From the NCBI GenBank assembly GCA_030616165.1, contig JAUWXV010000164.1:1-8174 (forward strand): a DNA stretch of 8,174 nt. Reading direction: 5' to 3'. Position 1 is the first letter of the stretch, and every line of letters starts with the position of its first letter. Shown here in pieces: positions 1 through 8,174 of the stretch. The translations under genes and the position numbers were made by a program. Below the pieces are notes generated by a model that was not told the DNA's origin, ran no database searches, and worked only from the letters and a program-made list of their open reading frames with translations. The stretch is from a bacterium. Lineage in GTDB: Bacteria > SM23-31 > JAUVVT01.

Positions 1-796
1 CCACTCCCACATTCCCAATCGGTGATTTCACAAACATCTCAACATTTCCACGATCGGGTGTTATAATATTTCTTAAATTTTCAATTATATCCCCAGCATT
101 TATATACTGCAGTTGAAAAATTTCTATCTCGAGGTCGCCCAGCAATTCTGTCTTACGATTTTTAACAAGAATTATATCATTCTTTCTTATGTAATTATAT
201 TCATTCGCAGTGAGAATTGCCTCCAGAGCACCCTCAAAGGGAACATTTTGAAGCCTCACCGTCACAAGGTCTGCCTCATTTACGTCTTTCGATATTACAA
301 TATTCACATTATAAACCTCACTAAAAACCCTTAAAAGGTCAATGATAGAAATATTTCTGTAATTCATCATTTCAATCTTTTGCTCTGCCAGCGCAGATTT
401 ATGAGGAATTTTTACTGAAAGCCCCTCTTCGATTAGTTCAATATTATAACCAACCTTTTCAGAAAGGTCAATTACAATCCTGACAATATCCGGATTTGTA
501 AACCATTGACTTACACGAATTCGTTTCACTGGACCTTCATTTACATTGATTATCCTTGAATTTTTAAATCTCGCATTTCTAATATCAACTACTACTTTAA
601 ACGGAAATTCTCCTGCTTTCAACGAAAAATATCTGTAATCGGGAATAAAATCTGTAATAACTTTTACAACTATATTACCATTTTCAACTTGAACATTAAT
701 ATTTTTAACAAAATTGACATCATCTTTTGCAGATACTGAAATAATCAAAGAAAATTGGATGAGCAAAAATAGTATTAAAATATAGATACTTTTCAT
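1..796 (-). CDS. pilQ: Type IV pilus secretin PilQ, N-terminal part (cut by window edge)
   Basis: This is the amino-terminal 265 codons of a type IV pilus secretin, the outer-membrane ring through which the pilus leaves the cell. The frame stays open to the left window edge, so the pore-forming C-terminal domain is not visible. Residues 1-23 form a signal peptide (MKSIYILILF, hydrophobic core, SVSA before the likely cut). Residues of about 35-120 read as an AMIN domain, with VVVDIRNARF, KRIRVSQW and VRIVIDLSEK; in this family the domain anchors the secretin to peptidoglycan. Residues of about 140-190 read as the secretin short domain (STN): ISIIDLLRVFSEVYNVNIVI, then VTVRLQNVPFEGALEAIL. A further N-domain starts near residue 215. 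The ATG overlaps the pilP stop (ATGA), and a strong Shine-Dalgarno GGAGGAG lies inside the pilP end, so translation is probably coupled. Confidence 0.93.
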   Translation of the reverse strand, partial: MKSIYILILFLLIQFSLIISVSAKDDVNFVKNINVQVENGNIVVKVITDFIPDYRYFSLKAGEFPFKVVVDIRNARFKNSRIINVNEGPVKRIRVSQWFTNPDIVRIVIDLSEKVGYNIELIEEGLSVKIPHKSALAEQKIEMMNYRNISIIDLLRVFSEVYNVNIVISKDVNEADLVTVRLQNVPFEGALEAILTANEYNYIRKNDIILVKNRKTELLGDLEIEIFQLQYINAGDIIENLRNIITPDRGNVEMFVKSPIGNVGV

Positions 797-1293
797 TTTT
801 CTCCTCCAAGTCTCAAAATAAATTCTTTATTGCTCTCTCTCAAAACCACACAATCTTTTTCAACTTTAACTATTTTTTTACCCTCAACAACATCTCCTTC
901 CCAATAAATCTTATTATTAATGACAGCAATTGCTCCTCCATTGACCCATTGAACTCCACTTAAAACAAGACTCAGCGTTTCCTCAGCCTGTTTTTGTTCA
1001 ACAGTTATTTGTTTTTTAACCTCCCTGAAAAACGGGTCTCTATCACCCCAATCGCCATCAAACTTTTTAACTGGTGCTGTGTCATCAGGGGCTAAATCAT
1101 CAACATTAGAAGATATATTCCCCCTTGAAGGGATTTTTACATCCGCAGAAATCGGTGGTTTACCAATTGAAAAAGAATCACCCGGTAGAACTGACTTGGT
1201 TGGATTTGAAAAAAATGTCGTATAAATATAAAAAGACGCCACAATAATTAAAAGCACAATCAATATCTTCACCGTTGTACTTAATTTATTCAT
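793..1293 (-). CDS. pilP: PilP-like pilus assembly protein (PilP/GspC HR domain)
   Basis: A 166-residue protein in the usual place of pilP, directly before pilQ. It has one N-terminal membrane segment (about residues 9-27, ILIVLLIIVASFYIYTTFF), a low-complexity linker rich in Pro, Asp and Ser to about residue 80, the motif RDPFF, and a small beta domain (about residues 107-163: LSLVLSGVQW, AIAVINNKIYWEGD, VEKDCVVLRE). A membrane anchor, a linker, a DPF motif and a beta domain that presents INN...GD is the plan of PilP and GspC proteins. These link the inner-membrane PilN/PilO complex to the secretin periplasmic domains. The start is supported by AAGGA six bases before the ATG. It overlaps pilQ by four bases. 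Unlike canonical PilP it appears to be a transmembrane protein rather than a lipoprotein: no lipobox cysteine is visible, which is closer to GspC. It is separated from pilO by about 1 kb of repeats and may therefore need its own promoter. Confidence 0.8.
   Translation of the reverse strand: MNKLSTTVKILIVLLIIVASFYIYTTFFSNPTKSVLPGDSFSIGKPPISADVKIPSRGNISSNVDDLAPDDTAPVKKFDGDWGDRDPFFREVKKQITVEQKQAEETLSLVLSGVQWVNGGAIAVINNKIYWEGDVVEGKKIVKVEKDCVVLRESNKEFILRLGGEK
801..807 (-). promoter_or_regulatory. Ribosome binding site of pilQ inside the pilP coding end
   Basis: GGAGGAG on the minus strand, about six bases before the pilQ ATG when counted from the GGAGG core. It lies within the last codons of pilP and fixes the pilQ start. 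Together with the ATGA stop/start overlap it points to translational coupling of the two genes. Confidence 0.8.
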
Positions 1294-1540
1294 AAATTTC
1301 CTTTTTTATTAACTTTATGAACAATCCAGAATATAATAAAGTTTAAAATAATTTAAAAAACTTCCTGACCTGATTAATTCATAAAATTGAGCTAATATCC
1401 TGAATACGGTAATGTAAATGAAAAATTAATAATCGTCTTTCCATGTTTTATTTGTCATTCCCACGAAAGTGTGTGTTGCATAACACCCCCGTGTCATTTT
1501 CCTCCTTAGGCGAAGAATGACAAAAGTCTTCAATTCTCGC

Positions 1541-1592
1541 GTAGGGGCGGGTTTACCCGCCCTCTTTTAAGGGTGAACAAGTTCGCCCCTAC
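1541..1592. repeat. GTAGGGGCG hairpin unit with inverted ends
   Basis: The unit begins GTAGGGGCG and ends CGCCCCTAC, so its termini are inverted repeats. Inside is a compact hairpin GGGCGGGT-TT-ACCCGCCC (1545-1562), followed by GGGTGAAC-AA-GTTCGCCC, which pairs with one wobble. It is one of four units in the window sharing the GTAGGGGCG head, all in the same orientation (1541, 1777, 2005, 3552). This suggests a dispersed, possibly mobile repeat family. Confidence 0.75.
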
Positions 1593-1730
1593 ACGTAATG
1601 ACAAAAAAAATATTTCTGCAACATCCACGAAAGTATGTGTTGCACAACACCGCCGTGTCATTTCGACCGAAGTCTCCTCCGAAGGCGGTTCCGCCTTTGG
1701 CGGAGAGAAATCTCATAACGCTTGCTGTAG

Positions 1731-1904
1731 AAGGTGTTCCCACAAAATAGCCTATAATAATGTCTTTTAATTAAATGTAGGGGCGAACCTATGTGCGTGC
1801 ACTGTGTGCTTGCACTGTGTGCCTGTCCTTTGGATTCGCCCTCTTTGTTTTCTAATAGCTAATATCTATAAGCTTGAGGCTATAATCCAGTTATTGTCAT
1901 TCCC
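1731..1904 (+). repeat. Direct repeat copy 1 (long form)
   Basis: This stretch is nearly identical to 1959-2093, from the shared TTCCCACAAAATAGCC block through TTATTGTCATTCCC. It carries a GTAGGGGCGAACC unit at 1777. Compared with copy 2 it has about 39 extra bases inside the hairpin loop. These contain two copies of TGCACTGTGTGC (1798-1809 and 1811-1822), so the loop appears to have expanded by short tandem duplication. Confidence 0.8.
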
Positions 1905-1918
1905 ACGCCCACCTTGTC

Positions 1919-1942
1919 ATTCCCCCGAGAACTCGGGGGAAT
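1919..1942. repeat. Perfect 11-bp-stem palindrome
   Basis: ATTCCCCCGAG, two A bases, then CTCGGGGGAAT: a perfect hairpin preceded by TGTC and followed by CC. It is of the widespread dispersed TGTCATTCCC repeat type. No T-run follows on either strand, so it does not look like an intrinsic terminator. Confidence 0.7.
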
Positions 1943-1958
1943 CCATCTTCTTCTGGCG

Positions 1959-2093
1959 AAGGTATTCCCACAAAATAGCCTATAATAATGTCTCTTAATT
2001 AAATGTAGGGGCGAACCTGTGTGTTCGCCCTCTTTGTTTTCTAATAGCTAATATCTATAAGCTTGAGGCTATAATCCAGTTATTGTCATTCCC
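1959..2093 (+). repeat. Direct repeat copy 2 (short form)
   Basis: Second copy of the 1731-1904 segment. The offset is 228 bases at the left end and 189 at the right because the loop here is shorter. Its hairpin is intact and minimal: GGGCGAAC (2009-2016), loop CTGTGT, GTTCGCCC (2023-2030). The high identity suggests a recent segmental duplication. Confidence 0.8.
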
Positions 2094-2301
2094 GTACCCA
2101 CCTGTCATTCACGTCTCCTCTGGATTCCCGCTTTCGTATGTGTTGCACAACACCCACCTGTCATTTCGACCGAAGGCGGTTCCGCCTTTGGATTTTGAGC
2201 TTGATTTGACACTTGTCCCGCCAAAGGCGGGGTTTGGATTTTGACATTTGAAATTAAATATTCTATTTTCTACTAATATAGAAGAATTATTAGTTAAAGG
2301 T

Positions 2302-2865
2302 TCAAGAAATCACTTCACTATATAAATAAGTATATACCACAAGATAAATATCCATTTCTGGATAGTTATTATCATCTGCTGATATTGTCACAGAACCCGC
2401 CTTCAACAAAAAAGGGAAATCATCAAAACTCTCAATAAATCTTCCCAAATCAAAATATTTCCCGGTCATCCATATATTTATTGGTATTTTAATAATAGGT
2501 GAACTTTCAGTTTGCTCGGCAAAAAGAATATCTTTCTGTGGTGTAATTCTTTGAAAATGTATGCCATATTGTTCCCCCTTCCTCTGGATTACATTTGATA
2601 TATACAATAATTCATCTTTGGAAGGAATTTTTCCTTTAGTCTTCTCGATATCTCTTTTAATATTTTCAATATCATCCTGAAGCTTTTTTATCCCCTCCGT
2701 AGAACTCTTTGCCTTATTAAGACCATCATTTATTTTTGCAATCTCGAGTTTCATTTCAGCAATCTTTCTGTTCTGAATATTGTAAAAACCAAAAAACCAT
2801 AAAAGTATCAAACCCACCAGCCCAATAACATACAATATAAATCTTTGTTGATAATTCAAATTCAT
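2302..2865 (-). CDS. pilO: PilO-like type IV pilus inner-membrane protein
   Basis: This is the alignment-complex partner of PilN, about 187 residues from the chosen ATG. It has a short cytoplasmic tail (MNLNYQQRF), one membrane segment (about residues 9-29, LYVIGLVGLILLWFFGFY), a long charged coiled coil (about 33-80, QNRKIAEMKLEIAKINDGL and later KKLQDDIENIKRDIEK), and a C-terminal ferredoxin-like domain (IHFQRITPQ, IKIPINIWMTGKYFDLGRFIESF, MDIYLVVYTY). That order is diagnostic of PilO; the segment TGKYFDLGRFI is the familiar PilO core. An in-frame TTG at 2886 would add seven residues and overlap the pilN end. I prefer the ATG at 2865, eight bases after the pilN stop. Neither start has a clear Shine-Dalgarno, so coupling to pilN translation is likely. 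The known role of the family is dimerising with PilN through periplasmic domains to hold the pilus machine in register with the secretin. Confidence 0.9.
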   Translation of the reverse strand: MNLNYQQRFILYVIGLVGLILLWFFGFYNIQNRKIAEMKLEIAKINDGLNKAKSSTEGIKKLQDDIENIKRDIEKTKGKIPSKDELLYISNVIQRKGEQYGIHFQRITPQKDILFAEQTESSPIIKIPINIWMTGKYFDLGRFIESFDDFPFLLKAGSVTISADDNNYPEMDIYLVVYTYLYSEVIS

Positions 2866-2873
2866 TTTATAAA

Positions 2874-3527
2874 TCAAATAATACAAGTAATTTCAAAATG
2901 AAGTTTTTCACTGCTCCCTTCTGGAGAAATCTCCTTATAGGGTTTTACCCTTGAAAAAAAAGCAGTATTTTCGAGACGCACCATAAAATCTGCTAAAAAC
3001 ATTCCGGAATTAAAATCCGTGTTGTTTACATATCCAGTGATTATAACATTATTTGGAGAAATATTGACATCATTTATCGTTATGTATTCAGGAGTTATAT
3101 TACTTAAGATTTTCATTACTCCAACAACATCTGCTGTCTCAGTAATGCCAGTAATCTGAGACATAAAATAATCCTTCTCATTCTCAAGAGCACTTTTTTG
3201 ATTTTTAAGCCTATCATAATCCTTGAGTATTGGATAAACACTGCCGCTGTAAAGATTAATTTGGCTTAATCTTTTTTCAAAATCAGATTTATTTTTAAAT
3301 ATCATTATGGAGAAGATTCCAAGAACAAACAGAATAAAAATAGAAGCAAGTTTAAATTTTATTTTTTCTTTTACTTTACTCTTTTCTACATTGCCAGGAG
3401 ACAGAATAGCCCTTTCCTCTTCTTCGGAGAGGTGAATGGAAATTTCCTTTTCTTCTGGCTCTACCTCTTTCCCTCTCAACACCTCAAGCAGCCTATCGGT
3501 TGCTAACTCTTTATTCTTATTATGCAT
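2874..3527 (-). CDS. pilN: PilN-like type IV pilus inner-membrane protein
   Basis: About 217 residues from the chosen ATG. The layout is an unusually long, charged cytoplasmic tail (about residues 1-55, with EEKEISIHLSEEEERAI), a single membrane segment (about 59-77, FKLASIFILFVLGIFSIMIF), a coiled coil (YDRLKNQKSALENEKDYF), and a periplasmic ferredoxin-like domain (VVGVMKILSNITPEYITINDV, NVIITGYVNNTDF, MVRLENTAFF). This matches PilN, which binds PilM through its tail in canonical systems and pairs with PilO. A GTG at 3545 would add MKRSIG, but that sequence lies in a duplicated copy of the upstream ATPase-gene end (3519-3545 repeats 3593-3619) and has no Shine-Dalgarno. The ATG at 3527 has AAGAGG nine bases before it and matches the presumed ancestral start. 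The C-terminus abuts pilO. Confidence 0.87.
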   Translation of the reverse strand: MHNKNKELATDRLLEVLRGKEVEPEEKEISIHLSEEEERAILSPGNVEKSKVKEKIKFKLASIFILFVLGIFSIMIFKNKSDFEKRLSQINLYSGSVYPILKDYDRLKNQKSALENEKDYFMSQITGITETADVVGVMKILSNITPEYITINDVNISPNNVIITGYVNNTDFNSGMFLADFMVRLENTAFFSRVKPYKEISPEGSSEKLHFEITCII

Positions 3528-3619
3528 GCCAATCGACCTCTTCACTTTTATGTAGGGGCGACCCGCTGGGTCGTCCCTCCTGATTCATTACCATTATGCA
3601 TGCCAATTAATCTCTTCAC
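3519..3619. mobile_element. Hairpin element insertion flanked by 27-bp direct repeats
   Basis: The segments 3519-3545 and 3593-3619 are imperfect direct repeats of 27 bases with three mismatches; both share ATTATGCATGCCAAT and CTCTTCAC. Between them lie 47 bases (3546-3592) holding a GTAGGGGCG unit with an 11-bp stem, AGGGGCGACCC, loop GCT, GGGTCGTCCCT, with one wobble. The left copy contains the pilN start and the right copy contains the ATPase stop. Removing the 74-base duplication plus insert would restore an 8-base overlap (ATGCATAA) between the ATPase stop and the pilN start. The simplest reading is insertion of a small hairpin element with target duplication. Duplication during break repair is an alternative. 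Confidence 0.7.
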
Positions 3620-4421
3620 GAACAAGTGATAAAACTAACTTTTCATCAACAATTTTTTTATTACTTCTTAACATAGCAATGAGAGAATTGTGACACAAAA
3701 CAGTTATCCTTCTCGGAAAACCCTGTGTGTGAATATAAATCTGTTTTAATGCTTTGTCAGTAAAAAGGATTCTCTCGGAATTGGAACTCGCCATCTTCAA
3801 TCGGAAATTTATCAAACCTATGGTATCCTTTTCATTAAGGGGATTTATCACATATCCCATAGTAACCCGGTCAAGGAAATTGGGCTGACGCTTCATCTTC
3901 TGAAGGAATTCCGGCTGAGCAAATATTATCAGTTGAAGTAACTTATATTCGTTGGTCTCATAGTTTAAAAGTGTCCTTAAAACTTCAACGTATGTTGGTG
4001 TCAGTTTCTGACCCTCGTCAATAATTAATATTACAATTTTCTTTTCTTTAATCCCTTTCCCAAGAAGATATTTCTCGAGTTCGTTCTTATGTTCAAATGA
4101 AGAGCGTGCAGATGTCTCTATTCCAAATGAGGTTGTAAGATTCTTTATGAATTCGAATTCAGACTTAAAAGTTGGGTCGAGTATTAATCGCACAATAAAA
4201 TTTGACTTTTCTTTTGCAAATTTTTGAATCAAAAGCCTGCTAACAGTGGTTTTGCCGGTTCCCACATCCCCAAGGATTACAGAAAGCCCCCTCCTTAACC
4301 TGATGGCAATTTCAAGCCTGTTCATACATTCCCGATGCTCTCGGGAATAATAAAAAAATGCGGGGTCAGGAGAGGTCGAAAAAGGTTCGTTTCTTAAACC
4401 TAATAACTTATAATAATCCAT
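3594..4421 (-). CDS. ExeA/GspA-like AAA ATPase of the pilus operon
   Basis: A 275-residue P-loop ATPase of the ExeA/GspA family. The family signature opens the protein (YYKLLGLRNEPFSTSPDPAF, then YYSREHRECMNRL). Walker A is GDVGTGKTT (51-59), Walker B is VILIIDEGQ (130-138), the sensor region is LLQLIIFAQPEF (161-172), and the terminal GFPRRI (234-239) is the usual C-terminal motif. Aeromonas ExeA is about twice as long because it also has a membrane segment and a peptidoglycan-binding domain; this protein stops after the ATPase, so it should be cytoplasmic. ExeA acts in placing the secretin; a comparable role in PilQ assembly or in energising the inner-membrane complex is inference. It sits where pilM is expected. 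Its ATG is preceded by AGGAG eight bases upstream and overlaps the end of the MerR gene by 14 bases, which suggests translational coupling. Its end carries the repeated 27-bp segment. Confidence 0.88.
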   Translation of the reverse strand: MDYYKLLGLRNEPFSTSPDPAFFYYSREHRECMNRLEIAIRLRRGLSVILGDVGTGKTTVSRLLIQKFAKEKSNFIVRLILDPTFKSEFEFIKNLTTSFGIETSARSSFEHKNELEKYLLGKGIKEKKIVILIIDEGQKLTPTYVEVLRTLLNYETNEYKLLQLIIFAQPEFLQKMKRQPNFLDRVTMGYVINPLNEKDTIGLINFRLKMASSNSERILFTDKALKQIYIHTQGFPRRITVLCHNSLIAMLRSNKKIVDEKLVLSLVREEINWHA

Positions 4422-4641
4422 TCTTTTTTCTCCTGAAGATTTCTTTTATGGGTACTCTTTCTAATCTTAATTTTTTTATCTTTTCAAGTTGTTGCAATGT
4501 TTGGTCAATAAAATATCTGTAATTACTTCCTTCACTTCTTGAAACCTCTTCAATCAGCCCAATTCTCAAATAATAATTCAAAGTATCAATTGACAATTCA
4601 CTCAACCTTGCTAAATCACCGATAAGATAAATCTTTTCCAT
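4408..4641 (-). CDS. Short MerR-family transcriptional regulator
   Basis: A 77-residue protein made almost only of a MerR-type winged helix-turn-helix: YLIGDLARLSELSIDTLNYY (helix-turn-helix, about residues 5-24), then the wing GLIEEVSRSEGSNYRYF with the family pattern of GLI, R and YRYF, and a helix QTLQQLEKIKKLRLERVPIKEI. The usual effector-binding domain is missing, so metal or drug sensing is unlikely; the protein ends in RRKKNGLL. Short MerR proteins of this kind can act as dimeric DNA-binding proteins. It is the first gene of the pilus operon and overlaps the ATPase gene by 14 bases. A three-half-site operator candidate lies 40 to 89 bases upstream of its ATG, suggesting autoregulation of the whole operon (inference). 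The start is supported by GAAGG just upstream of the ATG. Confidence 0.85.
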   Translation of the reverse strand: MEKIYLIGDLARLSELSIDTLNYYLRIGLIEEVSRSEGSNYRYFIDQTLQQLEKIKKLRLERVPIKEIFRRKKNGLL

Positions 4642-4680: not shown

Positions 4681-4730
4681 ATATTACTCAATGGTTTCAT
4701 ATATTACTCAATAGTTATTGAGTAATATAT
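4681..4730. promoter_or_regulatory. Operator candidate: three ATATTACTCAAT half-sites
   Basis: A perfect inverted repeat with 15-bp arms and a 2-bp centre occupies 4699-4730 (ATATATTACTCAATA, GT, then the complement). A third half-site, ATATTACTCAAT, lies at 4681-4692 in the same orientation as that at 4701-4712, exactly 20 bases or about two helical turns away. There is no T-run and no upstream gene to terminate, so this looks like a binding site rather than a terminator. The adjacent MerR-type regulator is the obvious candidate binder. On the minus strand the sites also supply TTGAGT (4711-4706) and TAATAT (4686-4681) with a 19-base spacer, the stretched spacing typical of MerR-controlled promoters. 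Confidence 0.65.
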
Positions 4731-4735
4731 AATTA

Positions 4736-4764: not shown

Positions 4765-4953
4765 GAAATTTTTATATTTTTTTTAAAATCTTTCCCAAAA
4801 AAATAACCTCCTTCTGAATTATTGTGATAATTAACTAATCACCCATTCACCAAATAAAACATAAAAATCGCTTTGAAAATTCACTCTAATTTGTTATTTT
4901 ATAAAGCAAAAATGCATATTTGAGGCATTGAATATGAAACGAGGTAAGGGTAA
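4765..4953. other. AT-rich intergenic stretch without a gene
   Basis: Between the operon promoter and the inverted-repeat element there is no supported gene. On the plus strand there is a weak TTGAAA box at 4873-4878, a GAGG at 4922-4925, and an ATG at 4934 that opens a 12-codon frame ending inside the left terminal repeat of the element. This could be the stump of a gene cut by the insertion, or chance. Confidence 0.5.
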
Positions 4954-5218
4954 TTCGGGGACACAATACTAATTATTCCTGGTTTTTAGCTTGAATTTCG
5001 GACCACGTTTCCGATGTAGAAGCATACGTACAAAGTAGGAAGTACGAATGACGAATTGGGAATAGGCAATGGGTAAGAGGCAATAGGAAAAACGAATTAT
5101 GAATTGGGACAAGAATTCTGGACTGAGTGCATAATGCTGATGAGCGTATCCAATCGTGCTATGTTAAAATGTATGATTTTCTGAGTATGTTGTCAATAAT
5201 TAGTATTGTGTCCTAGAA
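4954..5218. mobile_element. MITE-like element with 24-bp terminal inverted repeats
   Basis: The ends 4954-4977 and 5195-5218 are inverted repeats of 24 bases with two mismatches, including a perfect 19-bp core GGACACAATACTAATTATT. The 265-base unit has no coding frame. Its middle carries degenerate direct repeats of the GAATTGGG / GGCAATGGG / GGCAATAGG kind (about 5055-5110). A short non-coding body between good inverted repeats is the plan of a miniature non-autonomous transposable element. From memory, GGGGACACAATAC-type ends occur near transposase genes in other genomes, but I cannot confirm the family here. No clear target-site duplication is visible. The right end touches the conserved GTT of the last attC. 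Confidence 0.65.
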
Positions 5219-5301
5219 CGCCCAGGGTAACCAGCGGCGTCAAAAGACTTGCAAGTAAAACCACAGCGTTTCTCGCCGTCTGGTTGATACTTTTGTTATG
5301 C
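5217..5301 (-). repeat. attC recombination site of the 201-residue cassette gene (last in array)
   Basis: Reading on the minus strand, the R'' core is GCATAAC (5301-5295), five bases after the gene stop. The inner arm AACCAGACGGCG pairs with CGCCGCTGGTT, leaving one unpaired A; such extrahelical bases are the hallmark of folded attC sites. The R' end is GGGCGTT (GTT at 5219-5217). The site is 85 bases long. The bases after GTT (CTAGGACAC) are not those of a normal R' box but the end of the inverted-repeat element. Confidence 0.8.
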
Positions 5302-5305
5302 AATT

Positions 5306-5911
5306 TCAGTTTTCCCTATTTAAACGATTCCACATTATATCGTCATATTGAGTGGGGAAAATATCGTTATTAAAATTCTTTTTTATGTCTAATATGATAA
5401 GTTTTTGAAGTTTTTCATATGTGCTTTCGTCTATTTGCTCTACTGTTTTCGACAATATATTCTCATTAGGGAATGACTTCTTCAAATGTTTTAGAATTGG
5501 AATGTCAATAGCGGTATTTAAAAAAGGTAATATTGTCTTTGCTGTTCGCATGTTCGGCAAACTTGAATAGTAGACATAGACTTTTAGCGAAACGTCGAGT
5601 AGCTTTGCTGCATGACCATATAGGGCATAACCCGATTTTTTGATGATTTTATTATTTCTTTCTTTTTGTGCTGTTTTAATATTGCTTGCAAACCAATTAC
5701 AGAATCCCTTATGAAATGCCTGAAATTCTGTAATATTTTTTATATTTTCCAACGTTTGAAATTCTACGTGCAATTTGCCAGCAATTTTTGGTTTTGATTC
5801 TTTTTCAAACAAGCGAATCATAGCTGTAAATGTCAAAGCCATATCAATGACATTTTTCTGTTTTATCTCAGCCGTAATATATGAATTTTCTGTATTCATA
5901 TTTTTACACAT
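5306..5911 (-). CDS. Cassette-encoded protein of unknown function
   Basis: A 201-residue protein that I do not recognise. It has no signal peptide or clear membrane segment. It looks mostly alpha-helical and is rich in Lys, Ile and Asn. Notable stretches are FQAFHKGFCNWFASNIKTAQ, GYALYGHAAKLLDVSLKVYV and TILPFLNTAIDIPILKHLKK. The first ATG lies inside the R' box of the preceding attC (GTTATG), as is common for cassette genes; an alternative ATG four codons later at 5899 (MNTENSYI) is equally possible, and neither has a Shine-Dalgarno. It forms a cassette of its own (about 5219-5913) between two attC sites. It is more AT-rich than the SIR2 gene before it, in keeping with independent origins of cassettes. 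No function is proposed. Confidence 0.75.
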   Translation of the reverse strand: MCKNMNTENSYITAEIKQKNVIDMALTFTAMIRLFEKESKPKIAGKLHVEFQTLENIKNITEFQAFHKGFCNWFASNIKTAQKERNNKIIKKSGYALYGHAAKLLDVSLKVYVYYSSLPNMRTAKTILPFLNTAIDIPILKHLKKSFPNENILSKTVEQIDESTYEKLQKLIILDIKKNFNNDIFPTQYDDIMWNRLNREN

Positions 5912-5977
5912 AACGCCGAACTCGCCAGCAGCGAGGGACGCCAGGCCCTTGCCGTCAGGTGCAGTGATATGTTGGCC
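5908..5977 (-). repeat. attC recombination site of the SIR2 cassette
   Basis: On the minus strand the R'' core GGCCAAC (5977-5971) overlaps the last base of the SIR2 stop codon. The R' box is GTTATGT (5914-5908), preceded by GGC. The site is 70 bases long. Its inner arms (CACTGCACCTGACGG against GAACTCGCCAGCAGCG on the other side) pair only imperfectly by eye, and CTCGC-TGCTG-GCGAG forms an extra small hairpin. The cassette starts with TTGGCA, which matches its own R'' complement (TTGGCC) at five of six bases. Confidence 0.7.
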
Positions 5978-7134
5978 TATTTTGAGAAGATTTTATCAAT
6001 AGCCTCCATATTGAAACCGCTCATATGCAAATGTGCCTTATTAAAATCTACGAAACGATAATCCTTTTTGAATTCATTATGTTCGTCTTTTGTAGTTTTG
6101 TAATCAACAAATACCAATGGATTCTTTTTACGACCAAAAACCTCTTCATCCCAGTATGCTTCTTGATAATTCTTAACCAAAGAATATATGGTTTGTCTTG
6201 CATAGATATCATGGAATGGTAGAGAGTATCCAATTATCGCCATTCCAAAATTTAGACATCCAGCTACACCAAGCCCATTCCAAAAATCGCCAAGCGCACT
6301 TGCGTAGACAATTTTATTTGTAGATGGAGACAGTATCCATGGGGTTGTAAAAAACATTATTTGCTGCTTGTAGAGCCCTTCAACGTTTGCAGCCCTATAC
6401 ATATTCAATAAGGGATCATTATCATGTCGAGGTCCATCAAGTATTTTAGTCAGGCCCCAATCAATCCTGCCATTAAACACAGGGTGATTTGGTAGTGAAT
6501 TAACTCCTTGTTCTTTATAAGTTTTTACATATTCAAGGTATTGGCTTTTGTCAAACCAGTCTATCGAGCCATGCAATTTTAGTATTATTACCTCATCTTT
6601 GCTTGAATCGATTATGCCACTATAACTCGATACTGATTTGAAACGGTTAGGGAAAAGTCGATATGGCTTTCCAATTGCATCTAGCGAACGTTCTAAAAGA
6701 ATATCGTAGTTGAAGGTGAGAACGTAGTCATTAGGTCTTAGACGGCGAGCGAACTCAAGATAAAGTTCAGGAATCTTGTCAGGAGAAGGCATGTGCTGGG
6801 CTAGAATTTTTCCTATTAAAGTCTTTACAACCACTTGGCCCTCATTACCATCCCTGCTCCAAGTATCTCCCCCTCGTAATCCAAGATAGTGCTCAATATC
6901 CAAATAGCCCAAGAATTCTTCAAAATTTAGAGTATCGCGAGACAGATTTATTCCATCGCAATCTCGACGATATTCAATATATGCGTCAATATCTTCTCTA
7001 AGCATGCCAGCTCGCCCGCAAAGCGTTTTACTTCTATTAAGAATCTGCTCCCAAAGTTCATCTCCAAGTGGAAGACCAGCGGGCTTGGAAAAACCAGCTC
7101 CTAATATTATTACCCTATATTTTTTCTCTGTCAT
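5977..7134 (-). CDS. SIR2-domain protein (SIR2_2 type), probable NAD-consuming defence protein
   Basis: A 385-residue protein with the motifs of the bacterial SIR2-like family. An N-terminal nucleotide-binding loop reads IILGAGFSKPAGLPLGDEL (9-27). LTFNYD (139-144) holds the conserved Asn and Asp; KLHGSIDW (186-193) holds the conserved His188; and IIGYSLPFHD (300-309) is the final family signature. Proteins of this type act in several anti-phage systems (Thoeris ThsA, DSR, SIR2-HerA, Avs-linked SIR2) by degrading NAD+ when infection is sensed, which kills or stops the cell. Here the domain fills nearly the whole chain and there is no obvious second effector or sensor domain. The start has AAGGGA 11 bases upstream. 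The gene forms a single integron cassette (about 5914-7168). Defence is inferred from the family and setting; the NADase activity rests on the intact motifs. I am sure of the domain, less sure of the role. Confidence 0.88.
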   Translation of the reverse strand: MTEKKYRVIILGAGFSKPAGLPLGDELWEQILNRSKTLCGRAGMLREDIDAYIEYRRDCDGINLSRDTLNFEEFLGYLDIEHYLGLRGGDTWSRDGNEGQVVVKTLIGKILAQHMPSPDKIPELYLEFARRLRPNDYVLTFNYDILLERSLDAIGKPYRLFPNRFKSVSSYSGIIDSSKDEVIILKLHGSIDWFDKSQYLEYVKTYKEQGVNSLPNHPVFNGRIDWGLTKILDGPRHDNDPLLNMYRAANVEGLYKQQIMFFTTPWILSPSTNKIVYASALGDFWNGLGVAGCLNFGMAIIGYSLPFHDIYARQTIYSLVKNYQEAYWDEEVFGRKKNPLVFVDYKTTKDEHNEFKKDYRFVDFNKAHLHMSGFNMEAIDKIFSK

Positions 7135-7162
7135 TGAGTTTTATTTCCCTTGGCAATATGAG

Positions 7163-7223
7163 TGCCAATGCCGAGTTGACCGGCAGGTTCTCCTGTATAA
7201 TGGTCGCTTGCGGCTGGTTATGC
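7163..7223 (-). repeat. attC recombination site of the nuclease-like cassette
   Basis: On the minus strand the R'' core GGCATAAC (7224-7217) contains the stop codon of the nuclease gene. Inner arms include GCCG and GACC, which pair with GGTC and CGGC across an internal loop. The R' box reads ATTGGCA (7169-7163), where GTTRRRY is expected, so the G at the cut position is an A. At 61 bases it is close to the shortest known attC sites. The match of this R'' to TTATGCC at the start of the same cassette (7713-7707) is exact, as expected if both ends were once joined in a circular cassette. Confidence 0.7.
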
Positions 7224-7694
7224 CTCGCTTTCATCTGCTAAAATGGTTCCCCATTCGGGTGTCTCTATCAATTTTAGGCCTTCTTCATCAAAAAATTTCA
7301 CAAAAGCTGGCCGCTTAACTGGTTTCTCACTTTCATACTTAGCGGGCTGGCATCTATAGCCACGAGAATGTGTTTTTATAATAGAAAGCGGGGTATAAGC
7401 TACGAACACCGGATATTCTGGAACAGCTAAGGAATAATATGGAATCGCTAAAACCATATTAGGGTGAATCTTGCTTAATTTTCCAACGAACCCATAAATA
7501 GGATTATTCTTTTTTCCGGAAGTTGGGTATTTACCTTTTACTTGAACGGGCCTAATAGTTTCGCCTTCCCCTGCAACATACTTTGAGACTATGAAATCAA
7601 AGCCTTCATCTCTATGCGGGAAATACACATTCCAACCGGCATTAGCGAATCTTCCAGCTACATGCAGTTCTGCGGAATAGTCAGTTACTTTCAT
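7218..7694 (-). CDS. Small PD-(D/E)XK nuclease-like cassette protein
   Basis: A 158-residue protein whose first 55 residues look like a PD-(D/E)XK nuclease core: SAELHVAGRFANAGWNVYFP (Glu9 on the first helix), then HRDEGFDFIV (Asp33), then the beta-strand motif RPVQVKGKY with Gln51 and Lys53. The E, D, QxK order is typical of restriction-endonuclease-like and DUF4365-like domains. The rest (NPIYGFVGKLSKIHPNMVLAIPYYSLAVPEYPVFVAYTP) looks like the following strands of the same fold, with a Lys- and Pro-rich tail. The assignment is by motif only and could be wrong about activity. It is encoded in its own cassette (about 7169-7713). The ATG has no Shine-Dalgarno, and its stop codon lies inside the attC R'' box. 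Possible roles are a restriction-like or defence nuclease, alone or with the next-door SIR2 protein. Confidence 0.7.
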   Translation of the reverse strand: MKVTDYSAELHVAGRFANAGWNVYFPHRDEGFDFIVSKYVAGEGETIRPVQVKGKYPTSGKKNNPIYGFVGKLSKIHPNMVLAIPYYSLAVPEYPVFVAYTPLSIIKTHSRGYRCQPAKYESEKPVKRPAFVKFFDEEGLKLIETPEWGTILADESEA

Positions 7695-7707
7695 TTTATT
7701 TAAGTAG

Positions 7708-7796
7708 GCATAACGTTGAAGTGAGCAGCAGCACCAAAAAGCCTACCCGATAAGGGCGCAGTGCTACTCGCTGTCCGCTCAACTGATTTGTTACAC
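7708..7796 (-). repeat. attC recombination site of the protease-like cassette
   Basis: On the minus strand the R'' core is GTGTAAC (7796-7790), 27 bases after the gene stop. The outer arm GTTGAGCGGACAGCG pairs with the complement of GCTGCTGCTCACTTCAAC, leaving unpaired bases. The R' box GTTATGC (7714-7708) fits the GTT-purine-rich pattern well. The length is 89 bases. It is the best-formed attC of the window together with that at 5217-5301. Confidence 0.8.
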
Positions 7797-7823
7797 CTTG
7801 ATGTTTATTATTGATTAATGTTA

Positions 7824-8174
7824 TTATCCCTCTTTTAATATCCTTTCCGTCCAGTCGGTAAGTAGATTAGCCAAAACTGGCAATGAGCATCCGAAAGTAA
7901 TTCTACGAGTCTTTAGCCAGGCACTTTGAATAGCCACAATCCAATACCGCATTGGAGGGCCATGATTAAAACCGAAAATTGGACCACCGCTCATCCCGAC
8001 AATACTATCAAGAGGCATGTCAGGGTCCAATTGACCAATAAAACGAGAATATTTCGTCTTTTTTATGTTTTCTGGTGGAGAAGCCAGTTTTTGCACACTT
8101 ATCAAGGTCGGTGATACTGATCCCAGCGTCTGCAAATTTTGATCAGCCTCACTATGGATTGTAGTAATAAATTC
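7824..8174 (-). CDS. Trypsin-like serine protease domain protein, C-terminal part (cut by window edge)
   Basis: The frame is open to the right window edge, so only the last 116 residues are seen. The core motif SIVGMSGGPIFGF (57-69 of the visible part) contains the G-x-SGGP signature around the catalytic Ser62 of chymotrypsin-fold proteases, followed by YWIVAIQSAW, a strand that usually follows the active-site loop, and a helical end PVLANLLTDWTERIL. The His and Asp of the triad would be upstream, outside the window. It resembles trypsin-like peptidase domain proteins (HtrA/trypsin_2 fold) without a PDZ domain at the C-terminus. A TTG at 8135 could be mistaken for a start, but 13 more in-frame codons (EFITTIHSEADQN) precede it. 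It is the first visible cassette of the array, followed by an attC. Its substrate is unknown. Confidence 0.75.
   Translation of the reverse strand, partial: EFITTIHSEADQNLQTLGSVSPTLISVQKLASPPENIKKTKYSRFIGQLDPDMPLDSIVGMSGGPIFGFNHGPPMRYWIVAIQSAWLKTRRITFGCSLPVLANLLTDWTERILKEG

Follow-up and report, generated by a model that had tools for sequence, protein, structure and literature searches.

Integrons and clusters of attC sites lacking an integron integrase (CALINs, in the sense of IntegronFinder) have already been reported in many phyla, uncultured ones included (PMC9024848, PMC9668308), and draft assemblies overstate CALINs, as integrons break at contig ends (PMC9024848). The locus described here is hence of a kind already known, and its points of interest are its phylogenetic place and its defence-like cargo. 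With regard to the latter, published screens show that some Vibrio cassettes confer protection against phages (PMC12409362). A literature search conducted without the phylum name found no report of integrons in the phylum to which this genome belongs.

The window, that is, the whole stretch of 8174 bp under analysis, is the entire contig C311 of the source genome (G000), a 3.74 Mb draft assembly of 343 contigs that is 90% complete and has 1.6% contamination. The phylum is sampled here by six genomes, the source genome and five relatives (G001-G005). All the relevant genes lie on the minus strand, with a putative cassette array running from 8174 down to 5213 and a pilus operon from 4641 down to 1. 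Read from 8174 downwards, the cassette genes encode a protease-like, a nuclease-like and a SIR2-family protein and the product of cassette 3, and the contig end cuts the array inside the first of them. The features are the following:

7824 to 8174, minus strand: 5'-truncated fragment of a trypsin-like serine protease (GMSGGP), in an open frame running off the contig end
7708 to 7796, minus strand: attC site A, 89 bp, R'' GTGTAAC, R' G|TTATGC
7218 to 7694, minus strand: cassette 1 gene, 158 aa, PD-(D/E)XK nuclease-like by the motif GFDF..VQVKG only
7163 to 7223, minus strand: attC-like site B, degenerate, 61 bp, R' core ATT, not GTT
5977 to 7134, minus strand: cassette 2 gene, 385 aa SIR2-family protein (Pfam SIR2_2, E 6.1e-6, above the gathering score)
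5908 to 5977, minus strand: attC site C, 70 bp, R'' GGCCAAC, R' G|TTATGT
5306 to 5911, minus strand: cassette 3 gene, 201 aa (fewer if translation begins at an inner ATG), predicted to be all-helical
5213 to 5301, minus strand: attC site D, 89 bp, R'' GCATAAC, R' G|TTCTAG, the final site of the array
4951 to 5213, unstranded: REP/MITE-like element with 19-bp terminal inverted repeats GGACACAATACTAATTATT
4408 to 4641, minus strand: MerR-type regulator, the first pilus-operon gene after the array (Pfam MerR_1, E 2.9e-11)
1 to 4421, minus strand: type IV pilus operon (AAA ATPase, PilN, PilO, PilP-like and the start of PilQ, by Pfam), chromosomal backbone

We conclude with high confidence that positions 5213-8174 are an integron cassette cluster, either a CALIN or the distal part of an integron with its intI end missing from the assembly; both forms are retained because the contig ends within the array and the assembly lacks intI. 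A main line of evidence comes from a covariance model, R1, built with the R and L arm pairs from an alignment of 13 attCs taken from plasmid-encoded class 1 cassettes, and trained without any sequence from the window. Scanning both strands, its three best matches in the window are sites A (29.5 bits, E 4.6e-6), D (16.3 bits, E 0.009, match 5301-5211) and C (12.7 bits, E 0.07), all of them on the minus strand. With this model, held-out known attCs such as arr-2, arr-3, dfrA27, OXA-2 and IMP give 16-23 bits, so that D falls among divergent known attCs and C slightly lower. A half-site PWM test, consisting of two half-site matrices with no window sites in their training, puts the same three sites at the top, with C first in the window at 31.8 bits, followed by A (28.8) and D (23.5), against a best of 19.9 bits in 100 Markov sequences of window length. 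All three align to the class 1 model including the R''/R' and L''/L' pairs, the paired L''/L' arms of D displaying an extra-helical C, whereas B remains unmatched. A broader model, R2, was built from class 1 sites and from phylum sites chosen by R1. It assigns 22.8 bits (E 1.9e-4) to C, which lies outside its training; the partial training on R1-found sites makes the A and D scores circular. The arm pairs of R2 covary strongly, in a count that includes both trimmed and full copies of each site and phylum sites chosen by R1.

The first-pass annotation, made from the letters of the sequence, had proposed four attC-like sites of 61-89 bases and a check with an attC covariance model. That check recovers A, D and C ahead of everything else in the window, and the half-site PWM agrees, but site B is matched by neither R1 nor R2, and the half-site PWM places its 3' half no higher than 220th in the window. 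We treat B as a degenerate attC on account of its boundary match, its stop codon and its hairpin: its R'', GGCATAAC, and the start of its own cassette, GTTATGCC, are perfectly complementary over 8 bases; the nuclease-like gene ends with a stop codon (TAA) inside that R''; and its hairpin, with a z-score of -1.95, is fairly stable and the best of the four sites. Folding energy alone was also considered as an attC criterion and set aside: against shuffles, A (z 0.44) and C (z 0.29) show no excess, and a weak separation is seen only for B and for D (z -1.45). A search of the window against Rfam returned sub-threshold matches only, none of them useful. The clustering expected of a CALIN or integron cassette array, at least two same-strand attCs within 4 kb, is seen for A, C and D, which lie within 2.6 kb on the minus strand, and the GC content of the attC sites (0.49-0.63) is higher than that of the pilus genes (0.33).

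The second line of evidence is provided by the cassette boundaries. For a cassette to have been a circle, its own R'' has to be complementary to the bases that follow G| at its start. This match is 6/6 for the nuclease-like cassette (545 bp) and 5/6 for both the SIR2 cassette (1255 bp) and cassette 3 (695 bp), values that we recomputed and that coincide exactly with those initially claimed. Other features put forward at the outset also hold, namely a stop codon within an R'' box (the TAA at B), an ATG within an R' box (the first ATG of the cassette 3 gene, inside R' of C) and the succession of four consecutive genes, the first of them being truncated where the contig stops. In the SIR2 gene, the stop codon (TAG) adjoins the R'' of site C. 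The same rule applied to contig C262 of G005 yields one cassette, between 8869 and 9914, that matches its own R'' 6/6, and two longer, multi-gene intervals that fail the boundary match.

The gene content of the array, together with that of the other attC-bearing contigs described below, is in agreement with the mix seen in known integron arrays. The nuclease-like protein has no match in Pfam, NCBIfam or PADLOC, shares 46% identity with a hypothetical protein from a Qipengyuania plasmid, and its single-sequence AlphaFold model (pLDDT 35) is unusable and too poor for a fold search. The protease-like fragment shows a weak match to LmuA in PADLOC (E 0.0013) and none in Pfam. The protein of cassette 3 has no meaningful HMM match and no plasmid match, and its single-sequence AlphaFold model is of low confidence (pLDDT 56) and likewise too poor for a fold search. 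The SIR2-family protein carries the motifs GAGFS (12), FNYD (141), LHGS (187) and GYSLP (302) and is matched by several PADLOC SIR2 profiles (E 2.7e-9). Its nearest relative found (58%) belongs to an uncultured bacterium, where it adjoins a UvrD-like helicase gene and lacks an attC; it stands at 40% to a SIR2 protein from a Thalassospira plasmid and has no relative in viral contigs. The SIR2 cassette protein is likely an NAD-degrading defence effector.

The array lies beside the pilus operon and is not part of it. The AAA protein of the operon is 85%, 75% and 73% identical to those of relatives in the phylum, orthologues of MerR occupy the same place in G002 and G003, DNA similarity extends across merR in G004, and the region upstream of merR aligns between the window and G002 up to about 4788. 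In G002, G003 and G004, prepilin-like genes, with no cassettes, precede the MerR-AAA-PilM genes. Given that prepilin genes sit at the syntenic place in the relatives, the array occupies their spot, upstream of the merR promoter region. Searched without a positive control, the source assembly gave no match to the prepilin-like protein (533 aa) found in G002. Neither the SIR2 gene nor the nuclease-like one, the two covered by the search, is matched in the other five phylum genomes. Their absence, together with the prepilin genes at the syntenic place, indicates that the array is not a fixed operon; the refutation proposed beforehand, that attC matches would be missing at all four sites and the same four genes would form a fixed operon in relatives lacking attC-like spacers, was put to the test and did not materialize, since attC matches are present and the syntenic relatives are without the array.

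Several observations concern the flank itself. A repeated CTCAATAAC.ATTGAGTAAT motif, located at 4684-4735 upstream of merR and shared with G002 and G003, is probably a MerR operator. The REP/MITE-like element, with 45 full or partial matches across the source genome, abuts site D and ends at the last base of its R' box, the final one of the array; it may have inserted next to the attC, or a cassette may have been captured next to the REP. The PilN gene of the window (2874-3545, minus strand) keeps the N-terminal tail of the PilM-PilN protein of its relatives and lacks the whole PilM actin-like domain, which is present in L024:8523-10001 and L025:8315-10279, as if it had been deleted in frame. 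Lastly, a long intergenic stretch between the pilP-like gene and pilO (1440-2250) contains the near-repeats tgtcattcccacg, gtgttgcacaacacc and gtaggggcgaac.

The window is not the only part of the source genome to contain attC sites. R1 locates them at C233:11665-11726 (49.6 bits), C233:6289-6422 (33.5 bits) and C172:4935-5005 (28.7 bits), and R2 adds C204:15423-15494 (40.2 bits) and C233:12157-12245 (21.0 bits), both outside its training, so that at least three contigs (C233, C172 and C204) bear attCs besides the window. In C204 (L168, G000:C204, 6331-7495), a TIR-domain gene (Pfam TIR_2, E 3.8e-25) directly precedes an attC, and the next gene encodes a nucleotidyltransferase-domain protein. 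This TIR gene is a second defence candidate of the NAD-consuming type among the cassettes of the source genome. In C172, the gene of an exonuclease-BRCT protein is followed by the attC and preceded by a PD-(D/E)XK-like gene. Two other genera of the phylum also carry attCs. In G005, from another family of the class, R1 finds them in at least eight places, several of them on C262, where a multi-attC array includes BrnT/CopG and PemK toxin-antitoxin cassettes, while G001 and G003, used as negative controls, have no match with either model. Because the genome-wide R1 search relied on a lossy first pass, which missed site A and C233:6289-6422, the attC counts per genome are lower bounds. The R1-detected attCs, the boundary rule, the lack of the SIR2 and nuclease-like genes in relatives, the prepilin genes at the syntenic place and the further attC sites together support the suggestion of the first-pass annotation that a CALIN or other array of integron cassettes adjoins the pilus operon. 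A broader proposition, that the whole phylum keeps scattered cassette clusters (SIR2, TIR, toxin-antitoxin) with no integrase of its own and that these are moved only by integrases acting in trans or by a recombinase that escapes current IntI profiles, seems improbable to us.

The most tenable alternative is a sub-case of the integron cassette cluster, in which the integron is complete, with intI, attI and Pc beyond 8174 on a piece that was not assembled or binned, and the window holds its distal cassettes. The contig stops inside a cassette gene and the assembly is 90% complete in 343 contigs, both of which speak for this possibility, as does the excess of CALINs that broken integrons produce in draft assemblies (PMC9024848). 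Against it, no integron integrase scores above the IntI cut-off in the window contig or in the 90%-complete source assembly, with its 22 recombinase candidates, and none is found in the five relatives; in the same search the positive control, IntI1 of R100, reached 508 bits. The profile has no match at 1e-40 in any of the six phylum genomes, and nothing above the cut-off in G002 or G005. The best candidates, XerC/D-like proteins on C169 and C274, were considered as IntI and discarded, as they match in two pieces only, with at most 86 bits per piece. On a G005 contig that also carries an attC, a truncated and stop-interrupted fragment of a tyrosine recombinase (L144, G005:C278, 14967-15257) scores 40 bits against the IntI profile. 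With a contig end inside the first cassette gene and drafts that are incomplete, the absence of an integrase is not proven, and we regard a complete integron as a real, if somewhat less than even, possibility.

A binning or assembly artefact, with the cassettes of another organism joined to this contig, is very unlikely. The draft is indeed fragmented and has 1.6% contamination, and REP repeats beside the array could mislead an assembler, but the REP element that separates the array from the pilus operon is one of a family with many copies in the source genome, attCs are found on other source contigs and in two other genera, and the pilus flank is orthologous to those of the relatives. Even less credible is a chance resemblance of spacers to attC within a fixed operon or defence island, for which one might invoke the occurrence of SIR2 proteins in defence loci elsewhere and the 58% homologue adjoining a UvrD-like gene without an attC, but which would have to accommodate three same-strand attCs, every one of them preceded by a gene, detected by a model trained elsewhere and scoring above all of 100 simulated sequences, as well as the boundary matches, the missing SIR2 and nuclease-like genes in relatives and the additional attCs in genome and phylum.

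Under the preferred reading of an integron cassette cluster, the tyrosine recombinase IntI would recombine attC at G|TT, using its bottom strand in folded form, and would excise cassettes as circles or insert them. The cassettes now located upstream of the chromosomal MerR-AAA-pil operon would owe their past mobility to IntI; as neither the assembly nor the phylum genomes yield an integrase, such past recombination is something we infer. The cassettes may be expressed, and the SIR2 cassette could act in defence by depleting NAD on phage infection. Regarding their origin, the attCs of the phylum are close to the class 1 consensus, given that a class 1 model finds them, which makes exchange with Proteobacterial integrons plausible. 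More generally, these results extend integron cassettes to a barely sampled bacterial phylum and suggest that the gene-capture machinery of Vibrio and of drug-resistance plasmids reaches this phylum too. The cargo, SIR2 in the window and TIR, nuclease and toxin-antitoxin genes in the sister arrays, fits the recent notion of integrons as stores of anti-phage genes (Darracq et al. 2025, summarised in PMC12409362).

Among described systems, the CALIN is matched in having at least two attCs less than 4 kb apart in one orientation, one gene per cassette and no intI found nearby; it differs in that the contig is cut inside the array, so that an intI may lie at the missing end, and in that site B is degenerate. 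The sedentary chromosomal integrons of Vibrio and Xanthomonas are similar as chromosomal arrays of unknown, toxin-antitoxin and defence-like cassettes, whereas here no intI was found and short arrays are scattered over contigs in a candidate phylum. The SIR2 anti-phage effectors (DSR1/DSR2, ThsA and pAgo-SIR2) share with the cassette 2 protein the SIR2 motif set, LHGS included, and the matches to PADLOC SIR2 profiles, and differ from its single-gene form of 385 aa, which lacks the partners of those systems. Finally, the integrons and CALINs described from metagenome-assembled genomes of archaea (Sci Adv 2022, PMC9668308) are comparable in being mostly CALINs in fragmented drafts, while the present case concerns a bacterial candidate phylum represented by six genomes.
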